A stretch of DNA of 64,000 bases from Schizochytrium sp. TIO01 (taxonomy: Eukaryota; Sar; Bigyra; Thraustochytrida; Thraustochytriidae), in assembly GCA_004764695.1 (NCBI GenBank), contig SMSO01000037.1, positions 1,410,247-1,474,246 of the forward strand, given 5' to 3'. The position numbers and the translations under genes were made by a program. Numbering within the stretch: position 1 is the first letter of the stretch; each line of letters starts with the position of its first letter. The notes under the pieces are model-generated. The model was not told the origin of the DNA. It worked only from the letters and a program-made list of their open reading frames with translations, and made no database searches. Below are positions 5,378-12,733 of this stretch, one piece after another.

Positions 5378-5587
5378 ATGGCGATAGAAAACAGCGATTC
5401 GTCGAGGTCTGTGTGGTCTGTGTGCGGAGATGAAGAAGCGTCTTCACTTGATCGCTTCTGGCGCGTCTTCCTTCGCGCATGCATAGCACTGGTCACCTCC
5501 CTGCATCCTTTTCCTTGCTGGGGCGAGGAACAGGTCGCAAGGATCGGGATTTCGTGCGCCAGAGGAGTGAGTGAGTCAAAATCCTGA
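5378..5587 (+). other. Small ORF, 69 codons, doubtful
   Basis: An ATG at 5378 opens 69 codons in a locally GC-richer patch. The opposite strand is also partly open. There is no recognised domain, and nothing shows it is expressed. It lies about 0.7 kb before the GFAT start. Confidence 0.12.
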
Positions 5588-6300: not shown

Positions 6301-8373
6301 ATGTGCGGAATCATTGCATCCCTCATGTCTGGTGACATGACCGTGCCGGTCGCTCTTGAAGGCCTCCGACGCATGGAGTACAGAGGCTACGACTCTGCTG
6401 GTGTCGCCTGCATTACCAACCTTGAGCGTACCCTTCAAGTGGAGAAGCGTAAGGGTAAAGTTATCAACCTTACCAGCGCAGTAAACGGACGTCCTACATT
6501 CCAAGATGCTAGCGTTGCCATTGCTCACACTCGCTGGGCTACCCACGGACCCCCTACTGATCGTAACTCTCACCCTCACTGCTCTAACGATGGCAAGCTC
6601 GCCATTGTCCACAATGGAATCATTGAGAACTACCAGGACCTCAAGAACGAGCTCATTGAGGTTGGCTACAACTTCGCCTCTGAGACTGATAGTGAAATCC
6701 TCGCAATCCTCATTCGCCACCAGCAACTCCAGAACCCCGAGCTCCCTCTCGAAGCCGCCGTCAGTCTCGCTCTTGCGGAATGCACGGGTGCCTGGGCAGT
6801 CTGCGTTATCGACGAGTCCAACCCGAACCTTCTTGTCGGTGCTCGCAAGGGATCCCCTCTGATCCTCGGCCAAAGCAAGAACGGCCTCATGCTTGCCTCG
6901 GATGCCACCGCTGTTGCAGGAATTGCTGACAAGGTCATCTATCTCGAGGAGGACGACGTCGTATCCTGTGTTCGCGATGCTGTAACTGGAGACTACGTCT
7001 TCTCCATTGGATCTATGGCAGAGGCTCACTTCTCAGACTACATGTCTGACAGTGAGGACTCCGTTTCTTCTGGTCACTCTGGGAGCTCTGGAGAGTCCAA
7101 GAACTCCAAGGACTCAATCTTCTCCGAGGGAATGCTTGGCAGCCGCCCCATCACCCCCCGTGCTCGTTGCATGAAGAAGCTCTTCCGTCGCTCCTCTTCC
7201 AATCCTCGTGTGCAGCGTAGTGCTGTCGAACTCACCATGAAGGTTGAGACTATCCAGAAGAATGGATTCAAGCACTTCATGCTCAAGGAGATTATGGAGC
7301 AGCCCAAGGTTCTCCGCGAGTGCCTTCGCTCTCGTGTTGACGAGAAGACTGGCCTGCTGCAGCTCCCTTCGCTTGACGGAGTTATGGACCGCATCTTAAA
7401 TGCTCGCCGTATTCTCATCTGTGCTTGCGGCACCAGCTGGCATGCTGGCCTCGTCGGTGAATACCTTCTCGAGGGTCTCGCTCGCATCCCTGTCGAGGTT
7501 GAATACGCCTCAGAGTTTCGCTACCGCTCACCCATCATCTTCAAGGATGATGTTGTGATTGTCACTTCTCAGTCCGGCGAGACTGCTGATACCCTTGAGG
7601 CCATTCGCATCGCCAACAAGGCTGGTGCTCTTACTCTTGGTGTTGTCAACGTCGTGGGCTCTTCGATTGCCCGTGAGACCGACGCTGTGGTCTACCTTCA
7701 GGTTGGCCCTGAGATTGGTGTTGCCAGCACCAAGGCGTTTACTGGTCAGGTCCTTGTGCTTACCATGCTTGCTGTAGTCCTTGGACACCGCAACGGCAGC
7801 ATCTCTGATGCCAATGCCCTCGAGTACTCTCGCCTTGTTCAGGAGATCCCTGACAAGGTCTCTGAGTGCCTCTCTCAGACCAACCTCGACTCCATCAAGA
7901 AGCTTTCGGCATCTCTTCGCTACGCCAAGAACTTCCTGTACCTTGGTCGTGGATTTAACTTCCCTGTGGCCCTTGAGTCTGCACTCAAGCTCAAGGAGGT
8001 CAGTTATGTGCATGCTGAGGGATACCCTGCGGCAGAAATGAAGCACGGACCCATTTCCCTGATCGACCAGCAAATGCCTGTCTGTGTGATTGCTCCCAAG
8101 AGCTTCCACGAGAATAACTACGAGAAGGTACGCTCCAACATCCAAGAGGTGGTTGCACGTGCTGGCAACGTCATTGCTATTACTGATGCTGAGGGCAAGT
8201 CTGACTTGGACAAGCTCGCCGAGAAGGTTATTGTGGTTCCTTCCACTGTTGAGTGGCTCTTCCCGCTCGTATCCTGCATCCCGCTTCAGCTCCTATCATA
8301 CTGGATCGCCGACTACCGTGGATGCGAGATTGACTCTCCGCGTAACTTGGCCAAGAGTGTTACTGTGGAGTAA
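6301..8373 (+). CDS. GFAT: Glutamine--fructose-6-phosphate aminotransferase (isomerizing)
   Basis: This enzyme converts fructose-6-phosphate and glutamine to glucosamine-6-phosphate and glutamate, the committing step toward UDP-GlcNAc for glycans, GPI anchors and walls; it is cytosolic. The product is 690 residues, near the usual 680-700 of eukaryotic forms, with no intron. The start is certain because mature enzymes need Cys2 at the N-terminus, and the protein begins MCGIIA. The glutaminase domain (about 1-235) shows HTRWATHG, NSHPH and VHNGIIENY. Two SIS sugar-isomerase domains follow (about 365-500 and 535-680), with CGTSWHAG, SQSGETADTL, STKAFTGQ and EMKHGPISLID. The C-terminus PRNLAKSVTVE carries the conserved Lys (K685) of the isomerase site. 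A Ser-rich linker at about 245-310 contains an RRSSS site (R296-S300), a PKA-type motif. Codon use is strongly C-biased, suggesting high expression. Confidence 0.98.
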   Translation: MCGIIASLMSGDMTVPVALEGLRRMEYRGYDSAGVACITNLERTLQVEKRKGKVINLTSAVNGRPTFQDASVAIAHTRWATHGPPTDRNSHPHCSNDGKLAIVHNGIIENYQDLKNELIEVGYNFASETDSEILAILIRHQQLQNPELPLEAAVSLALAECTGAWAVCVIDESNPNLLVGARKGSPLILGQSKNGLMLASDATAVAGIADKVIYLEEDDVVSCVRDAVTGDYVFSIGSMAEAHFSDYMSDSEDSVSSGHSGSSGESKNSKDSIFSEGMLGSRPITPRARCMKKLFRRSSSNPRVQRSAVELTMKVETIQKNGFKHFMLKEIMEQPKVLRECLRSRVDEKTGLLQLPSLDGVMDRILNARRILICACGTSWHAGLVGEYLLEGLARIPVEVEYASEFRYRSPIIFKDDVVIVTSQSGETADTLEAIRIANKAGALTLGVVNVVGSSIARETDAVVYLQVGPEIGVASTKAFTGQVLVLTMLAVVLGHRNGSISDANALEYSRLVQEIPDKVSECLSQTNLDSIKKLSASLRYAKNFLYLGRGFNFPVALESALKLKEVSYVHAEGYPAAEMKHGPISLIDQQMPVCVIAPKSFHENNYEKVRSNIQEVVARAGNVIAITDAEGKSDLDKLAEKVIVVPSTVEWLFPLVSCIPLQLLSYWIADYRGCEIDSPRNLAKSVTVE

Positions 8374-9845
8374 ACAGTCCCACCGATCATCCATTTCATT
8401 GCGTACCCGCTCTGCCTGTTTGCCTGACCCGCGTGCATATCGAAATGTTTCCTTCGCTAAACTCAACCTGCACGCACATCATTTGCCTGTTGTTTCCCGA
8501 CATGTCTGGTTCTGTTCACTACTAAAGCAGAATTCTTATGTAGTATCTCCCGATCCCAACTCTCGCTCAGCGAGACCCAAATACACTAGATTTTCCCTAA
8601 GCACCAAATAAGTGCTCACATTTTATATGTTATCCAATATTTCTCGATTGCAATATTTTCAAGACCATGACACGCTGGTTTCTAGTACCATTTATGCTTC
8701 TATGAATAGCCAAAACACTACTCCTTGACTTGCAGTGAAAAGTGTAGTGACGAACGAGTTTTCGTAACGGATCTAACCATTTGGATGCTTCACTTTTCCT
8801 ATCCAAGGAACATTAGTTTATGTCTTCAATTACATCTGATGAGAAATTCATAGACCGTCTCACTTGCTCCGATCCATGTAAATCTTTAAACATATTGTCA
8901 GTTTGGAAGCAGTATATGTTGGCCAGTAGTAGCCGTCCTCAGATTCTTGGATTGAAATATTTTTCTTCCTCAATATCAAGGAGTTTTAGAAGTCCACACA
9001 TGTCCGATGGCCTGAATTACTCATCTAACCTCGCTTTGTCTGCTTTTGACTCCTTCTTGAAAGTTTGAAGTTACTGCGGTCTCTTTTCAAGTCCTCGTTG
9101 CGATGTTCTCAAGTCTTAGTTCGTACTAAATCCCTTCTAGGTCGAATCCAGATTTCTCGTGTAACATTGGTAGAGAGTACTTCTACTATTAGTTATATGC
9201 AGGGCTAGGAAGTACGTACGGTCTCTTATCTCAACTAGCAATAAATAGTAGATAGAGAACTCTACTAGTAGGTATAATATAGTTACCTACTCGGTCAGCC
9301 TAGGCTTGTTAGAGTAACTAGTAAGTACGTACTATTCGACGTTTCGACGTTGTGATAACTATTATCATTGTTATTCACAGTAGGTAGTGTTATTATTATC
9401 CAATTATAGATTAGGTATTGTTCTCGTAGAAGGCAGAAGAAGCAACTGCGTCGAGCCGAATCGGAGCTGCCAGACTCGTGACGGCAGAACCTAGGGCCGT
9501 GACATCGCACCAAAGGCAGGGGAGCCATCACTTTAGTGGCACTGCTTTGTAGAGTCTTCGTTGACAAAGACAGCCTTCTACAGGGACAGGATATCTAGTT
9601 TTGAGCTCGTTCACAAAGAAGCTCACTACAAAAGAGCAGATTGCACACGGAGTCATCTTACTCCATCTCTATCGTTATCCCTTCTCGGTTTTCAAACACC
9701 GCGCAGCGTGTACGAAAGAAGCATAGTTCCCAAAGACTGAATTGGTTGATCGTGAGGAATTGACATTCTGTAGAGACTGAATCGAAAGATTATCTGAGAG
9801 GACGCTCATCAAGATCTTTCAAGAGATCAAACTCTTTTACCAAAC
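8374..9845. other. Gap between GFAT and the TBCC/clathrin gene
   Basis: No gene is seen. The first part should hold the GFAT 3' UTR and the last 200 bases the leader of the next gene. Between about 9160 and 9400 there are many TAGTA/TACTA/GTACGTAC words (see findings), with no clear tandem repeat. Confidence 0.6.
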
Positions 9846-11496
9846 ATGGTTGTTGTTAGCACTCCTGACGGTAAGGAATTTAGCGATGCTCGTGAATACC
9901 GCCGATACCTTTTTGAGCACTACTATAGTTTTCGCAACCGTAGCGATGAAACCCTATCCAAGGTCCCTGGCGAGATTAATGGAGAGGAGTTCCAACTTGA
10001 TGGTCTCACCGACTGCGTCGTGACAATTCTCGATGTGACCAACCGCGTCGTTGTTAGCGACTTGACCAACTGTAAGGTCTTTCTTGGTCCATCCAAGGAA
10101 TCAGTCATGTTTCGTAAATGCAAGAATTGTGTTTTTACCGTTGCCTGCAAGGACTTGCGCGTAAACTCTTGCCAAGATTGCACCGTCAATGCCTTCTCCA
10201 CAATGCCCGTGCAGCTCGATGACTCGCATCACATCTCTGTTGGCAACTTCAACGGTGCTTACTCTGGCCTGACTGCTCATTTCCGCGCTGCTAATCTCGA
10301 TCCTTCTCAAGGCACTGACGTCAAGGTAAAGGATTTCAGCGAGCGCGACTCTGAGCTTCCTCAGCCGCATTTCACGATGCTGACTGCTGACGACGAAGCA
10401 TCTCAACCCTGGGAGGTGGAACTTGAAAACGCTGAAGGTCCGCCCGAAAACCCAATCAACCCTTACAGTAGAACCTGCTGAGCCCCCTGCCTGCCCGCAC
10501 CCTGTGCCTGATCCTCATGCTAGTTTCGAGGAGGATGCATTTGGTCAGGAAATCGATGACCAAGATGCATTTGGCATTGACGAAACCAACCAGCCTGAGA
10601 CTGCGTTCGGGTCTGATGAGGAGTTTGAAGGAGACCCATTCGGCGAACCTGCCTCTCGTGTAGAAAACCAGACTGTTGAGCCGTCCAATGACTTCTTCGC
10701 CCAGGACGATCAAGTGCAATCGCAGGAAGAGGACCAGCACTTCCAGGCTAACAGTGACATGGACGTGATGGATGACAACTTTGGCATGTCCGAGGAAGAG
10801 GCACAACAGCAACAACAGCAAGACTACGGGATGCTTGAGCAGCAGCAGCAGCAAAATTTTATGATGGCAGAACAACAGGAGTATGTCGCGCCTGAACCAC
10901 AGCAGCAGGAGTATGTCGCGCCTGAATCCCAGCAGCAGGAGTATGTCGCGCCTGAACCGCAGCAGCAGGAGTATGTCGCGCCTGAACCGCAGCTGCAGGA
11001 GTATGTTGCGCCTGAAATGCAACAGCAGGAGTATGTCGCGCCCGAACCGCAGCAGCAGCAACAACAATATGAAGCACCTGATCTTGATGGATACACAGAG
11101 CCGATGGGTGCTGCAATGGATGCACCTTCCCCTCCTGTGTCAGACTTCATGGCGGACTCTGATGAACAGGACGCGCGTATTGCATGGGAAGCCCAGTTTG
11201 CAGAGCGTGTCAAGGCTTTGGATCAGCAGGCTGAGGATAAGCAGGCTGAGATGCAAGAGAAAGCGGAGGAAGAACTTGACGAACACTATGCACAGCGCAC
11301 GAATGAAAATGCTGTGCGCTATACAACAAATCGCGAGTCAGAGAATGCCATGCTTCAAGAGAACGAGGATATTTCTGTATCTACAGACGAAGACATCAAT
11401 TGGGCAAGAGTTGTATCGCTTGTAGATGTGAACACCAAGGAAGGCGATGCAAAATGCGATCGTATGAAGGCATTGCTGATGCGTCTCAAGAACTAA
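9846..11496 (+). CDS. XRP2/TBCC-domain protein fused to clathrin light chain (spliced)
   Basis: Proposed CDS is 9846-10437 joined to 10469-11496 (539 residues). The N-terminal part (about 35-165) is a cofactor-C/XRP2 beta-helix domain. It shows the ladder of D/N-C repeats (LTDCVV, LTNCKVFLGP, FRKCKNCVF) and CKDLRVNSC, which aligns with the XRP2 arginine-finger segment; R105 is the likely finger. After an acidic region with DAFG and DPFG motifs and a Gln-rich repeat comes a coiled coil. The C-terminus (WARVVSLVDVN ... MKALLMRLKN) matches the end of clathrin light chains. Clathrin light chain binds heavy-chain trimers at coated pits; TBCC/XRP2 domains act as GAPs or partners for Arl/tubulin-type GTPases. 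The light-chain frame has no ATG before codon 10758, inside its acidic region, which supports splicing to the upstream frame. A one-base sequence error or an unusual two-gene arrangement remains possible. Confidence 0.72.
10438..10468 (+). other. Proposed 31-nt intron
   Basis: Both halves of the gene are open but in different frames (codon starts at 0 then 1 mod 3). A GT at 10438 and an AG ending at 10468, preceded by a pyrimidine-rich CCCTTACAG, remove 31 bases. This joins G10437 to TA10469 as a Val codon and restores one frame. The donor GTCCGC is not a strong consensus. An acceptor three bases further on also keeps frame. Confidence 0.6.
10870..11049 (+). repeat. Coding minisatellite, six 30-bp units
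   Basis: Six in-frame 30-base units encode the decapeptide QQQEYVAPEP with minor changes (E for the first Q, S for P, QLQ for QQQ, M for P). They sit in the disordered region between the acidic segment and the coiled coil of the clathrin light chain part. The near identity of units at the DNA level shows recent expansion. Confidence 0.95.
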
Positions 11497-11884: not shown

Positions 11885-12733
11885 TCACATTCGCTTTTTG
11901 GAGGCATGGGAAGTATCTGTGTTGCCAAAGAGAAGAAAGAGCCCCAGTAAGCTTCCTGATAGATAACCAACGCCAGCCCCATATACTAACGTGATGGGCC
12001 ACGCTTGCCAAGGTCGATCCCAATCAAGAGGAATAGGAATGGCACCGAGCCAGGCCCCGGCAACAGTACCCACGATCTGATGGAATAAAATATTATCGAC
12101 CATCGTATCGGTACTGAAGAAAACATAGAACTGAAGAAACTCATCAAGGATGGCCTCAACTCGGCCTGACCTTGATGATATCCATGCAAAAGGCATCGTC
12201 ACTAAGCTTGAGAAAAGAGACGCAAACAGAAATGTCCTCTCGCTCATTCTGGATGCTCGTCAATAGTGCCAGAACAGCATAAGAAAGTATTTCAAGAGTT
12301 CCGAATAAACCAGCAGTTAGCCTCTAAAATATTGAGTAACTCCTGATGATGCTCTATATTGTCCTCAAGTCAGGAAAGTACCATTTCTGTCTGAGGTTCG
12401 ATGAATTGAAACGTACTGAAAAAAGGGTGCCCCGAACAAGACAAGTACTACATGCAAAATAAAAGCACCTGCGATGCATGTCAAAAACGTATGTGATAGA
12501 AATGATATGGTTGATTTGTCAGCTCTCGCATACTTTGCGTGCCGAGGGCACTGTGTATAAAACCACGCAATGCGACCAGTCAGGACCAGCATTAGAGCCA
12601 CCTGCATGTGCAGCACAGGCTTCTCTTCCAGAGTATTTCCCGTAAGTAAACGTGGCGCGAGCCCTAAGCTACTCATTGTCCAGACCACATCTCCACCTGC
12701 CCACACAAACGTGTCCCATCGTGTATTTGACAT
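11885..12733 (-). CDS. PIGF: PIG-F / Gpi11, GPI ethanolamine-phosphate transferase subunit
   Basis: PIG-F is the small ER membrane partner of PIG-O and PIG-G that adds ethanolamine phosphate to the GPI glycan core. The CDS on the minus strand is proposed as 12733-12417 joined to 12248-11885 (226 residues; the human protein is 219). Exon 2 carries the family hallmark [20 protein letters not shown] followed by a glycine-rich final membrane segment. Exon 1 carries [14 protein letters not shown]. Splicing gives [17 protein letters not shown], which lines up with the GAP...ETFLFA block of animal PIG-F. The start is the first in-frame ATG (12733); an in-frame stop lies about 50 bases upstream of it. 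Several hydrophobic helices are visible. It converges on the TBCC/clathrin gene. Confidence 0.88.
12249..12416 (-). other. PIG-F intron, 168 nt
   Basis: On the minus strand the donor is GTACGT at 12416, a good consensus, and the acceptor is CATCCAG ending at 12249. A CTAAC branch-like motif lies inside. The exons on either side are in different frames and each carries part of PIG-F, so an intron is required. Confidence 0.82.

Follow-up and report, generated by a model that had tools for sequence, protein, structure and literature searches.

The TBCC domain is known from RP2/XRP2 and from tubulin cofactor C, and in RP2 it carries an arginine finger, Arg118 (excerpted text of PMC4539340). The same excerpted text assigns roles at the nucleotide site to Gln115, Gln116, Arg120, Glu138 and Phe101. 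XRP2 also has an N-terminal myristoylation signal and a C-terminal NDK domain (excerpted text of PMC3879569). The other relevant family, the clathrin light chains, is represented in the genome of Schizochytrium sp. TIO01 by an ordinary gene on contig C31 whose product has an acidic D-A/P-F-G N-terminus and ends in a W-x-R..L-V-D-x-N..LKN segment.

We analyzed a 64,000 nt stretch of this genome (termed the window), in which proteins related to both families are encoded side by side. The source genome measures 64 Mb in 37 contigs, with a GC content of 45% in the 264 kb that we sampled. An earlier note on this DNA had described a TBCC/XRP2-type N-terminal half and a clathrin light chain C-terminal half that point in the same direction, and profile searches identify both halves (PF07986, E 7.7e-28; PF01086, E 1.4e-13). 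The two known domains are genuinely arranged in this uncommon way; that the two are made as a fusion is unproven. Based on the arrangement of reading frames and candidate splice sites, we consider it reasonably probable that an RP2-like TBCC protein and a second light chain are produced from a single transcription unit and share a start codon.

Among the papers listed from the open-licence literature, we found clathrin light chain and TBCC nowhere in a fusion context, and clathrin light chain was not co-mentioned with C-CAP or tubulin binding cofactor C. Among the papers listed for a broader query, three name clathrin light chain once or twice. The only co-mention of clathrin light chain and TBCC in that literature was in a dietary transcription study whose excerpted text is irrelevant to the present question. 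In PMC12221091, which deals with the proteome of Aurantiochytrium limacinum, a term search finds clathrin a single time, within a reference.

Layout of the locus and its two coding parts

The upstream half is an ORF of 211 amino acids that runs from ATG to TGA (9846..10481, + strand). Its coding score is +36.8, in its own frame only, as evaluated by a codon model whose training set was 47 other long ORFs. The match to PF07986 reaches 97.2 bits against a cut-off of 24.8 and places the TBCC domain proper at residues 47-164 (9984..10337, + strand), and the best PDB match of this half is human RP2 (2bx6, 1.3e-23). The light-chain frame is open from stop to stop for 370 codons (10384..11496, + strand). 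It lies one frame on from the TBCC ORF, and the two open frames overlap head to tail. According to the codon model, both halves are coding in their own frame and negative in the other five.

The locus is flanked by 1472 bp on the side of a long upstream ORF (end at 8373) and by 388 bp on the side of a downstream ORF (start at 11885). A search of the genome for a second copy of the junction, such as might come from a second haplotype, returned the window itself as its sole match. The downstream gene (window positions 11885-12733, minus strand), which from its sequence we take to be a PIG-F-like gene of the GPI-anchor pathway, comprises two ORFs with a probable joining intron of 168 nt (GTACGT..CCAG).

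The earlier observation that the light-chain half lacks an ATG at its start is correct, in that the earliest in-frame ATG (10759..10761, + strand) is located well inside the coding stretch. Moreover, the region upstream of this codon (10483-10758) has a coding score of +28.7 bits that was equalled in 0 of 500 shuffles, and thus the light-chain coding region appears to extend upstream beyond its first ATG. An acidic N-terminal region with DAFG, TAFG and DPFG motifs (10525..10644, + strand) was delimited here by alignment and coding score. It resembles the N-terminus of the C31 light chain (MAEEEDPFGFG start), a low-complexity likeness that is not significant by BLAST.

The clathrin light chain profile covers the long helix and the C-terminal segment (11035..11493, + strand), corresponding to residues 189-341 of a query that begins at 10471, with 51.7 bits against a curated cut-off of 22. 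In the window light chain, a long helix precedes a C-terminal segment of the form W..R..L.D.N..LK, and by analogy with the family this part would be expected to dock on the clathrin heavy chain via the helix. A low-confidence single-sequence model of the read-through protein (P0001) predicts helices at 438-508 and 531-548. The light-chain half also contains a 30-nt tandem repeat encoding EYVAPEPQQQ-type units (10876..11058, + strand; 6.1 copies, 90% matches), whose length is likely to vary between strains.

PF01086 has two matches in the genome, one in the window and a stronger one on contig C31. The gene on C31 starts at a codon of its own and contains a 281-nt intron, and Pfam gives its main exon 78 bits; with this ordinary light chain as query, phmmer found nothing in the PDB at E 0.1. 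The two light chains are 31% identical over 106 residues (BLAST) and have in common both the acidic N-terminus and the C-terminal segment described above. In contrast to the C31 copy, the window light chain has no start codon of its own, is directly preceded by the TBCC ORF, and includes the 30-nt repeat array and a proline-rich linker.

At least eight TBCC-profile matches occur in the genome, the window included. Nearest to the window TBCC half are two proteins encoded on contig C32 (L012 and L013), each with 38% identity, that carry Tudor-like domains. No light-chain match was found in the stretches of these two proteins that were scanned (for L013, 1004 residues of a 2061-residue frame). 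The Tudor-TBCC proteins share with the window TBCC half an N-terminal PDG..F..Y..F segment and a tail in which a Trp and an Asn-Pro pair are common to all three paralogues (W189, N202 and P203). Asn202-Pro203 (10449..10454, + strand) is identical in both paralogues. Because an ordinary light chain and other TBCC proteins are encoded elsewhere in the genome, the window locus represents an extra copy. By sequence comparison, its light chain is a second, diverged copy beside a TBCC paralogue.

Searches farther afield yielded pattern matches and no confirmed relatives: 123 matches for the TBCC half and three for the read-through protein in viral contigs, and 87 in prokaryote genome contigs, with 0 confirmed in each case. 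Modelling of the read-through protein from its single sequence gave a poor result (mean pLDDT 49.8), and Foldseek found no match to this model within a threshold of E 0.001. The three best Foldseek entries are TBCC, CAP and RP2 chains (E 0.018, 0.10 and 0.42), which may offer mild support.

A probable shared start codon and two candidate products

Splice sites were judged against eight introns inferred from conserved proteins, with lengths of 134, 143, 168, 202, 215, 281, 299 and 521 nt, donors of GTAAG or GTACG, and acceptors of CAG or TAG. This reference set is small and inferred from sequence, and four of its eight members, being introns of two Arf paralogues, cannot count as independent. 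Furthermore, conservation does not fix the donor of the PIG-F-like intron, for which the best of several possible sites was taken. Background frequencies were taken from 27,945 GT and 36,176 AG sites in 264 kb. De novo intron finding with the codon model in 264 kb produced 14 pairs of adjacent segments but hardly any introns that could be used.

Two Arf genes (L041 and L042 on contig C34, at about 105-106 kb and 100-101 kb) have an apparent 7-nt microexon, TTCACTG, between two introns. A further Arf-like gene (L039) reads through the TTCACTG place without introns.

A candidate intron of 598 nt (9871..10468, + strand) would join the start of the TBCC ORF to the light-chain frame. Its donor (GTAAGG, after ACG) is located 25 nt past the ATG, ranks in the top 1.2% of the 27,945 GT sites, and has the same six letters as two Arf donors. 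The acceptor at 10468 (TTACAG) is in phase with this donor and ranks in the top 3.3% of the 36,176 AG sites. Removal of 9871-10468 gives an in-frame light chain from the ATG at 9846, with the start MVVVSTPD-VEPAEPP. The summed donor and acceptor scores are 12.0 for the 9871 pair, 11.7 for an option with donor 8878, 5.3 for a 205-nt pair and 2.4 for a 31-nt pair. By these values 9871/10468 is the best-scoring route, a suggestive result, and this route gives no fusion.

In the mechanism that we favour, splicing of donor 9871 to acceptor 10468 would generate a light chain that stands alone and begins with a leader of eight residues. Unspliced RNA would instead generate the TBCC protein, which ends eight residues past Asn-Pro, its last conserved motif. 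The light chain probably depends on the promoter and the start codon of the TBCC ORF for its expression, since its coding stretch extends upstream past any ATG of its own.

Control frequencies temper the splice-site evidence. Of 318 coding stretches 595 nt long, 51 contained an in-phase donor that scored no lower than 9871, and of 762 stretches 95 nt long, 138 contained an acceptor that scored no lower than 10468; the 9871/10468 pair can therefore be a product of chance. In addition, the GGTAAG at 9870 codes for the Gly-Lys of a conserved PDGK motif; the paralogues use other codons.

It is doubtful that the light chain is instead a separate nested or overlapping gene, with an upstream exon or a non-ATG start, or an untranslated copy. 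The donor at 8878 combined with acceptor 10468 scores nearly as well as the 9871 pair (11.7 versus 12.0), as expected for a separate gene with an upstream exon, but such an exon implies an intron of 1.6 kb, and no promoter spacer exists between the two ORFs. The presence of an ordinary light chain elsewhere in the genome also fits this reading. Decay, however, would not be expected to leave 370 codons open and the C-terminal motif intact.

Possible routes to a fusion protein

The main alternative to alternative splicing is a fusion, in which the frame break would be explained by an error in the assembly, by an intron of an unusual kind or by +1 frameshifting. We regard it as possible, with less confidence than the shared start codon, that a TBCC-light-chain fusion protein is made. 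The four routes considered below all sit within the shared transcription unit, and hence their odds overlap with those of the explanation that we prefer. The earlier note had held that separate loci for the two domains in related genomes would speak against a fusion. In this genome the two domains are also encoded at different loci, as the C31 light chain and seven other TBCC matches; these genes are paralogues only, and the fusion is not refuted by them.

No single unbroken reading frame passes through both domains. The TBCC frame ends at a TGA (10479..10481, + strand), and reading TGCT as one step leads into the light-chain frame, a frame change of +1. One explanation is that the fusion is genuine and that the break is a one-base assembly error or a very recent indel within 10455-10478. 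Both halves are intact, the light chain is without a start, and the break affects nothing but the linker that follows the conserved Asn-Pro, all of which agree with a single continuous gene. We nevertheless consider this explanation unlikely, because the error must have hit about 24 of 1650 bases by chance, exactly at the protein boundary, and the break contains no long homopolymer.

Frame breaks elsewhere in the genome bear on this question in both directions. Stops fall inside 3 of 60 Arf matches (one stop among these families being at an intron), 1 of 16 chaperonin matches and 2 of 67 kinesin matches, and the 264 kb sampled contains another clean frame switch, perhaps two (L033), as would be expected if errors of this kind occur. 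However, frame breaks inside conserved domains look rare in the kinesin and chaperonin families. Among the kinesin matches, 53 of 67 span at least 300 of the 327 profile positions without a stop. Three split pairs among the kinesin matches are 117-144 nt apart, with no frame change across less than 100 nt; in two of these pairs both pieces lie in open frames of equal length and were taken as one frame. Similarly, a span of at least 400 of the 490 profile positions is reached by 11 of the 16 chaperonin matches, of which one contains an internal TGA, and three split pairs among the 16 are 235-365 nt apart. No short-gap frame change was seen in these conserved families, in a search that detects breaks inside domains only.

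The switch in L033 (minus strand, at about offset 7270, and perhaps a second one at 5380-5440) is a clean +1 frame change at a TGA within a long coding region. Neither half around this frame change has a Pfam match, and the change may reflect an assembly error, a mobile element or frameshifting.

The earlier note had proposed that the halves are joined by removal of 31 bases. Removing 10438-10468 does place them in frame with no stop, and the candidate intron (10438..10468, + strand) has GT..AG ends and uses the acceptor that ranks in the top 3.3% of AG sites. Its splicing fares worse, and a fusion made in this way by the spliceosome is very unlikely. Frame joining is weak evidence, because 155 GT/GC-AG removals achieve it (donors 10300-10480, acceptors up to 10759). 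The donor (GTCCGC, after AAG) scores -3.1, versus 6.6 to 11.4 for the eight inferred donors in leave-one-out scoring. It is equalled or beaten by 35% of the 27,945 GT sites in 264 kb, which is the background level; training the donor model on two other sets changes this share to 41% and 24%. A length of 31 nt is under a quarter of the shortest inferred intron and compares with a range of 134-521 nt. Finally, this splice would delete the Asn-Pro that is common to both nearest TBCC paralogues.

Programmed +1 frameshifting at UGC-UGA, in which most ribosomes would stop to give the TBCC protein and some would slip to give the fusion, would work like antizyme-type shifts. The break runs in the +1 direction, and a TGA closes the stretch shared by the two open frames; the frame switch in L033 is likewise +1 with a TGA. 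We consider this route highly improbable, given that three stretches show no unusual RNA structure (z-scores of 0.69, -0.09 and 0.15).

The least probable route is another intron such as 10326-10530 (205 nt, + strand; donor GTAAAG after AAG), which has a length in the range of the genome and would join TBCC residues 1-160 to the light chain, but whose donor is only in the top 12% of GT sites, whose acceptor is GAG rather than the CAG or TAG of the eight introns, and whose removal would take away the conserved TBCC tail (F164, P172, P174, H175, W189, N202 and P203). A 97-nt intron at 10468-10564 was rejected: its donor is at background level (73% of GT sites are as good), its acceptor is AAG, and it would cut out sequence that scores as coding.

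Candidate GTPase partners and possible biological meaning

If the light chain and the TBCC domain were joined, the properties of the TBCC half would determine what is brought to clathrin. Arg105 (10158..10160, + strand) aligns with the arginine finger Arg118 of RP2 and is invariant in the three paralogues. The neighbouring residues of the nucleotide site are less well kept: RP2 Gln115, Gln116, Arg120, Glu138, Ser99 and Phe101 correspond to Lys, Asp, Asn, Asp, Ser and Met in the window protein, such that one of six is identical (Ser99) and the change at Glu138 is conservative. The window TBCC half differs from RP2/XRP2 and from the Tudor-TBCC proteins at the same three positions, where Gln116, Arg120 and Phe101 have become Asp, Asn and Met; the equivalents of these residues are retained in both L012 and L013. 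Judging from these alignments, the TBCC part may bind its GTPase yet be a weak GTPase activator. The earlier note had pictured a GTPase-regulating module on the clathrin coat. The catalytic arginine is kept, and the idea is weakened because several residues that neighbour this arginine are changed.

The window protein differs from RP2/XRP2 in two further respects. Its start, MVVVSTPD, has no Gly2 and consequently no RP2-type myristoylation signal, and the proteins of the locus have no Pfam match to an NDK domain.

The genome encodes an ARL3-like protein (top PDB match ARL3, 5.1e-74) and an ARL2-like protein (top PDB match ARL2, 9.3e-89), and proteins of ARL2/ARL3 type are candidate partners of the TBCC part. 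A separate Arf-like protein (L047 on contig C5) has C-terminal repeats that look Tudor-like by eye. These repeats agree with a Tudor domain reported on the Arl13 of A. limacinum (excerpted text of PMC8358228). An RP2-like regulator and an Arf-like GTPase of one pathway thus seem to have gained the same type of domain.

If the fusion is made, a fold typical of ciliary and tubulin GTPase regulators would be tied to the clathrin coat, a link that we did not find among the papers listed from the open-licence literature. An ARL2/ARL3-binding domain would then be present on every triskelion that takes the window light chain instead of the ordinary one. As a speculation, the light chain of such a fusion could stand in for the lipid anchor as a targeting device. 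Events at the junction, on the RNA or at the ribosome, would decide how much free TBCC protein is made relative to the fusion, or relative to free light chain. If, as we favour, two proteins are instead made by alternative splicing, the locus would be a clean case of one start codon that serves two unrelated domains.
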